From contig JAJYXQ010000033.1 of the NCBI GenBank assembly GCA_021796385.1, forward strand, positions 1 to 64,000: a stretch of DNA of 64,000 nt, given 5' to 3'. Positions 8,779-9,067 of this stretch are shown piece after piece (the first letter of the stretch is position 1; every line of letters starts with the position of its first letter). The DNA comes from Thermoplasmata archaeon (lineage in GTDB: Archaea > Thermoplasmatota > Thermoplasmata > Lutacidiplasmatales > UBA184). The notes beneath the pieces are model-generated. The model ran no database searches and was not told the origin of the DNA. It saw nothing but the letters and a program-made list of their open reading frames with translations. Both the position numbers and the translations under genes were made by a program.

Positions 8779-8874
8779 GCGCGGGCCTCCCAACCTCGGC
8801 ACCGTCCCAAGCGGTAGGGGGCGTCGGTCGGTGGACGAACTTATTAGCCGGTGCGGTGATGCCCCGGGACACGT

Positions 8875-8980
8875 GCCCGCGTGGGGTAGCTACGATCGGG
8901 GGACCTCCCCTGCTCGCTACAATGGATTATCCTAGAGGCCTGCGGAGCCTCGGACCTGGGTTCAAATCCCAGCGCGGGCG
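8875..8980 (+). tRNA. tRNA-Arg(GCG) with a 31-nt D-loop intron (8892-8922)
   Basis: Acceptor GCCCGCG/CGCGGGC (8875-8881/8973-8979), anticodon arm GAGGC-CTGCGGA-GCCTC (8935-8951, anticodon 8942-8944), T-arm CTGGG-TTCAAAT-CCCAG (8956-8972). Removing 8892-8922 gives a 75-nt tRNA with D-loop AGCTTGGATTA. Confidence 0.85.
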
Positions 8981-9067
8981 CTCAGTCCCCGATGAGGGCA
9001 AAAACTGTTGCCACCGAGGGCAATGAACACATATCGGCCCCATGGTAAGTAGGCCGGCGCCGTGCTC

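Follow-up and report, generated by a model that had tools for sequence, protein, structure and literature searches.

A D-loop intron in the only tRNA-Arg(GCG) gene found in a Thermoplasmata archaeon genome is shared across its family

The window, the 64,000-nt stretch of DNA analysed here, carries at 8875-8980 (+) a single-copy tRNA-Arg(GCG) gene whose D-loop is interrupted by a 31-nt intron. We are highly confident that this is a D-loop intron with a relaxed bulge-helix-bulge (BHB) motif, lying in the only tRNA for CGC and CGU, and that it would be cut out by the splicing endonuclease EndA and the exons joined by a tRNA ligase. The host is a soil and mine-water archaeon of the Thermoplasmata, and its relatives point to a place in the Lutacidiplasmatales group. 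Its assembly, of which the window is contig C77, comprises 2.28 Mb in 81 contigs and is 92% complete.

The interrupted gene and its splice motif

The sequence and coordinates of the gene in the original prediction were exact on re-reading, and the perfect pairing described there was found in all three stems, i.e., the acceptor stem (8875-8881/8973-8979), the anticodon stem (8935-8939/8947-8951), and the T stem (8956-8960/8968-8972). The gene product is the only tRNA found in the genome for codons CGC and CGU, which make up 52 of 139 arginine codons across five ORFs that were sampled. A search of the genome for a second tRNA-Arg(GCG) found none, the sole other DNA match being tRNA-Glu(CUC). The features of the gene are as follows, with frequencies taken from 87 distinct interrupted genes aligned at both ends of the intron:

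8840-8846 (+): TATA-like box CTTATTA upstream of the gene, a putative promoter element
8875-8980 (+): tRNA-Arg(GCG) gene including its D-loop intron; the G at 8980 is position 73
8875-8891 (+): 5' exon, tRNA positions 1-17, GCCCGCGTGGGGTAGCT; 99% column identity in the 87 genes and the same as in intronless orthologs
8886-8889 (+): central helix, 5' strand GTAG, positions 12-15; paired with 8917-8920 in 87/87 genes
8890-8892 (+): 5' bulge CTA, predicted cut after its second base; C in 86/87, T in 87/87, A in 80/87
8892-8922 (+): intron of 31 nt, separating position 17 from 17a; in almost every relative it measures 30-35 nt
8893-8895/8914-8916 (+): intron-side helix, CGA with TCG; covarying, the first three pairs 98-100% paired
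8897-8912 (+): terminal hairpin of the intron from the RNA fold, 6 bp, loop 8903-8906
8917-8920 (+): central helix, 3' strand CTAC (CTGC or CTAT in relatives); T-A in 44 and T-G in 43, G-C in 81 and G-T in 6
8921-8923 (+): 3' bulge AAT, within a larger loop, predicted cut after its second base, which varies freely; the last base is an invariant T
8923-8980 (+): 3' exon, positions 17a-73; first base T in 87/87, anticodon and T arms 98% column identity
8942-8944 (+): anticodon GCG, from ARAGORN

A TATA-like box occurred at -62 to -28 in 78 of 85 relatives, against a mean of 0.5 in shuffles. On a practical level, the gene was missed or mis-called by two standard searches: ARAGORN called a truncated tRNA-Arg at 8912-8981 of the raw window, giving it a spurious 5' strand of the acceptor stem, and the Rfam tRNA model gave the raw gene 26.5 bits, under its cut-off of 29. 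When 8892-8922 was deleted, a 75-nt RNA remained, and ARAGORN called it as a clean tRNA-Arg(GCG). It is likely that genomes of the Lutacidiplasmatales group are mis-annotated at this gene.

In the alignment, every pair of the 4-bp central helix was kept in 87/87 genes, with U-A changed to U-G in 43 and G-C to G-U in 6. The first six positions of the intron-side helix were paired in 100, 99, 98, 86, 78, and 75% of the genes, by many pair types, giving 466 of 522 possible pairs, whereas 2000 shuffles gave 364 on average and never more than 388. Relatedness among the genes is not removed by such shuffles; it is removed by a control in which the partner strand is slid by one or two bases, and pairing then fell to 39-49% from 89% in register. 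Exons were 98-99% conserved, while interior columns of the intron fell to ~30%. Within the 3' bulge, the second base varied freely (A 35, C 29, G 15, T 8) and the base after it was T in 87/87, a pattern that fits a cut exactly between the two. Cuts shifted by one base were rejected: the freely varying base would then end up in the D-loop of the mature tRNA, or a base present in uninterrupted orthologs would be missing.

The original prediction had described a GTAG/CTAC helix, a CGA/TCG helix, and a terminal hairpin, all of which were found, within a relaxed BHB with two 3-nt bulges. The relaxed motif and the 5' bulge stand; the 3' cut site, however, sits in a larger loop, for an exon-side helix directly after the 3' bulge was seen in 0/87 genes at the three positions tested. 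Since this helix is absent from all 87 genes, the motif, as read from sequence, is of the relaxed HBh'/bulge-helix-loop (BHL) form and not a full canonical BHB. A continuous 5-bp helix, GTAGC/GCTAC, was also considered and rejected, because the pair adjoining the bulge covaries (C-G 85, T-A 2) and the CTA of the bulge is conserved, which speaks for a bulged structure. No Rfam match to a group I or group II ribozyme core was found at the intron at the gathering cut-off, and 31 nt is far too short for one. The gene's RNA fold was more stable than that of shuffled sequence (z = -2.93), and its unconstrained minimum-energy fold retained the intron hairpin and the CUA bulge. This lowest-energy precursor fold (-51.9), however, has its D/T region misfolded, which counts against the model; the cloverleaf that contains the motif (-48.6) is weaker by 3.3 kcal/mol.

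In the pathway we propose, transcription would begin from the upstream TATA-like box, and in the transcript exon GUAG (positions 12-15) would pair over 4 bp with CUAC at the 3' end of the intron, followed by the CUA bulge and the intron hairpin. The two-unit alpha'2-type EndA would then cut after CU of the 5' bulge (8891/8892) and after AA on the 3' side (8922/8923), and a tRNA ligase would seal U17 to U17a, so that the D-arm becomes normal. Since G12 and U13 regain the D stem, and G18 and G19 reach the T-loop, only after removal of the intron, splicing of this tRNA should be obligatory.

Distribution, uninterrupted orthologs and related introns

The comparison set consisted of 400 genomes of the class, 95 of which belong to the window's family (f1). 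The interrupted gene was present in 82 of these 95, that is, in every f1 genome where the gene was found, and an uninterrupted tRNA-Arg(GCG) in 0/95. The 3' half of the gene, searched for in five of the 13 f1 genomes that gave no match, was absent as well, as expected for assembly gaps. Because the same insertion occupies the same site in 82 of 95 family genomes, it is evidently not a product of chance. A second, intact tRNA-Arg(GCG), which the original prediction had named as evidence against an intron, was thus found neither in the window's genome nor in any of the 95 family genomes. When 85,462 named genomes were scanned for the interrupted-gene pattern, 88 stretches matched; among the 80 of these that were listed, nearly all came from organisms named Thermoplasmata archaeon, with two Euryarchaeota, one 'bacterium', and one Candidatus Lutacidiplasma silvani, a genus that NCBI places in Candidatus Lutacidiplasmatales, Thermoplasmatota. 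In family f3 of the same order, an intron of 21 nt with a quite different helix occupies the identical site.

The strongest single argument for both cut sites comes from orthologs that have no intron. Outside f1, 88 genomes matched an uninterrupted D-arm pattern, most of them reading GTAGCTTGGAYATCC, and the uninterrupted orthologs of other families read GGGGTAGCTTGGAYATCC or close variants. Splicing the window's gene in silico at 8891/8892 and 8922/8923 gives GGGGTAGCT^TGGATTATCC (^, junction), i.e., GTAGCT^TGGATTATCC, and the predicted product reads GGGGTAGYT^TGGAT in 87/87 genes. The predicted splice thus matches the uninterrupted orthologs, which argues that both cut sites, as first proposed in the original prediction, are right; the clean ARAGORN call on the spliced product agrees with this.

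Could the insertion remain in a working tRNA with an enlarged, structured D-arm? It is a stable hairpin, and D-arms are variable in some organellar tRNAs. However, the folded insert would tie up G12 and U13 in the central helix and displace G18G19, the hairpin drifts to ~30% column identity whereas the bases of the splice motif are held constant, and orthologs elsewhere are without the insert at precisely the predicted junction, so that we regard an insert that is never removed as very unlikely. A pseudogene or an assembly error could account for the ARAGORN mis-call and the Rfam score under the cut-off, but the stems are perfect, the TATA-like box is widely kept, the gene recurs in 82 family genomes, and no alternative gene for CGC/CGU was found; we give this explanation almost no credence.

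The D-loop intron of tRNA-Arg(GCG) is one of a set, as follows from T-loop insertions in the window's genome and from tRNAs of relatives that are interrupted at the same D-loop site. In this genome at least four tRNAs have T-loop insertions of intron type, each with an internal hairpin and located after TTCRA:

L229: T-loop insertion in tRNA-Arg(UCU); clean tRNA when spliced in silico
L230: T-loop insertion in tRNA-Ala(GGC); clean tRNA when spliced in silico
L232: T-loop insertion in tRNA-Asp(GUC); clean tRNA when spliced in silico
L234 (-): T-loop insertion in tRNA-Arg(CCG), with internal hairpin

The identical D-loop site is interrupted in tRNA-Pro(UGG) in f1 genera g3-g7 and family f28 (L268-L273, L289-L302), and in tRNA-Arg(CCG) in families f4, f9, f18, and f23. 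Hence one site is used in three isoacceptors (Arg(GCG), Arg(CCG), and Pro(UGG)), with hairpin sequences that are dissimilar between them. All three genomes of the window's genus that yielded tRNA-Pro(UGG) have it without an interruption (L286-L288), as does f3 (L285), and the family thereby offers a natural series for intron gain, with this gene uninterrupted in the window's genus and interrupted in sister genera.

Several further observations concern these genes. In a number of tRNA-Pro(UGG) genes (g4-g6) the 3' end of the intron reads CTCTAN, not CTACAN, which produces a mismatch in the central helix. The tRNA-Arg(CCG) of four other families (L274, L276-L278, L059) carries an apparent second intron in the T-loop besides that in the D-loop, as does the tRNA-Arg(GCG) of one f13 genome (G135, L275), whose D-loop intron is at the identical site. 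Family f2, which belongs to the same order, has a tRNA-Arg(GCG) whose D-arm is normal and whose anticodon loop holds an insertion consistent with a canonical 37/38 intron (L031, L032); intron position therefore differs between families of one order.

The splicing endonuclease

The EndA gene lies on contig C79 of the same assembly as one ORF with two PF01974 and two PF02778 units. Searches with both models found no further endonuclease unit or separate beta gene in the genome, which is ~92% complete, so that a second subunit could be missing from the assembly. The encoded protein aligns along its length with the two-unit EndA of relatives, and the EndA of a relative matches the Archaeoglobus enzyme across both units. 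No CSL/ASL loop insertion was seen ahead of the LSLxE helix in the catalytic unit in comparison with the M. jannaschii and Archaeoglobus enzymes, nor in 20 homologs. By these alignments, the sole splicing endonuclease found is a two-unit alpha'2-type EndA that lacks the CSL/ASL loop, and not the epsilon- or alpha2beta2-type enzyme that the original prediction had expected.

Carriers of the ASL and CSL loops are ARMAN and crenarchaeal enzymes. Efficient removal of relaxed introns has been ascribed only to (alpha-beta)2 and epsilon2 enzymes (PMC6379350), and relaxed motifs have been assigned to enzymes with CSL or ASL loops (PMC6379350, PMC12397907). The alpha4 and alpha2 enzymes are reported to cut only the canonical BHB, noncanonical introns being known among alpha2 archaea only from Korarchaeum, which has a crenarchaeal-type loop (PMC4033280), and the alpha'2 type is likewise described as narrow, accepting only the canonical BHB (PMC6379350, PMC4033280, PMC12397907). 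An opposing view holds that homodimeric enzymes are able to cut BHL-like motifs (PMC8707768), and the Archaeoglobus enzyme excises a BHL intron located at 37/38 when the pre-tRNA is full-length (PMC6379350). The intron described here bears on this disagreement.

Given the reviews that tie relaxed motifs to CSL/ASL enzymes, and an EndA without the insertion, the intron might instead be removed by a second endonuclease, or with the aid of a helper factor, and not by the two-unit EndA alone. Against this, the two domain models find two units in one gene and nothing else in the genome, and BHL-like motifs are, on the opposing view above, acceptable to homodimers; we therefore consider a second nuclease or a helper improbable. 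Removal by the two-unit EndA acting alone, the explanation that we prefer, may extend beyond this gene. It seems somewhat more likely than not to us that the Lutacidiplasmatales group is rich in noncanonical introns, that its loop-less two-unit EndA removes BHL introns from D- and T-loops, and that introns were gained recurrently at GTAGYT^TGG in several isoacceptors.

Comparison with known systems

Noncanonical tRNA introns are generally associated with (alpha-beta)2 or epsilon2 endonucleases bearing special loops, and Euryarchaeota with alpha4 or alpha'2 enzymes are generally held to have canonical introns only. Here, a D-loop intron has become fixed throughout a family of euryarchaeal grade, in a single-copy tRNA that is apparently essential, the window's genome has T-loop introns as well, and the only endonuclease found is loop-less. 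If a plain EndA does remove relaxed introns, the link generally drawn from noncanonical introns to specificity loops would no longer hold; since the sole EndA found is loop-less and the noncanonical intron is fixed, the loop rule is directly testable with one recombinant enzyme.

Noncanonical tRNA introns with a relaxed BHB (HBh'/BHL) are known from Thermoproteota, Nitrososphaerota, Nanoarchaeota, Korarchaeota, and ARMAN (PMC4090602, PMC6379350), and the remarks in the original prediction that such introns occur mainly in Thermoproteota and that one at ~17/17a here would be unusual were fair. The literature searched yielded no description of tRNA introns in Lutacidiplasmatales, and the paper naming the order, for which tRNAscan-SE was run, leaves introns unmentioned. 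Like the known introns, which also occur in D- and T-arms, the present one is short, lies outside 37/38, combines a 4-bp helix with a 3-nt bulge, and is predicted to be removed precisely to give a normal tRNA (PMC4090602, PMC6379350). Unlike them, it belongs to Thermoplasmatota and is accompanied by an alpha'2 EndA without CSL/ASL, and PMC4090602 does not list 17/17a in its example positions.

Another parallel is the D-loop intron in tRNA-Glu (both isoacceptors) of Methanopyrus kandleri, likewise a euryarchaeon, which was seen in RNA-seq (PMC3695527). The M. kandleri EndA also lacks CSL and ASL (PMC6379350). The M. kandleri case differs in that its D-loop intron is a second intron beside a canonical one, that its enzyme is of the (alpha-beta)2 type with constrained specificity, and that one species is concerned and not a whole family. 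The use of one site in several isoacceptors resembles the large-scale intron transposition described for Thermoproteales by Fujishima et al. (2010; cited in PMC4090602). Transposition would be expected to give near-identical introns in different tRNAs, and the hairpin sequences here differ between isoacceptors. The intron of tRNA-Arg(GCG) is thus an archaeal noncanonical tRNA intron of a known kind, and what is new is its lineage, its fixation across a family, the recurrence of its site, and its mismatch with the endonuclease loop rule.
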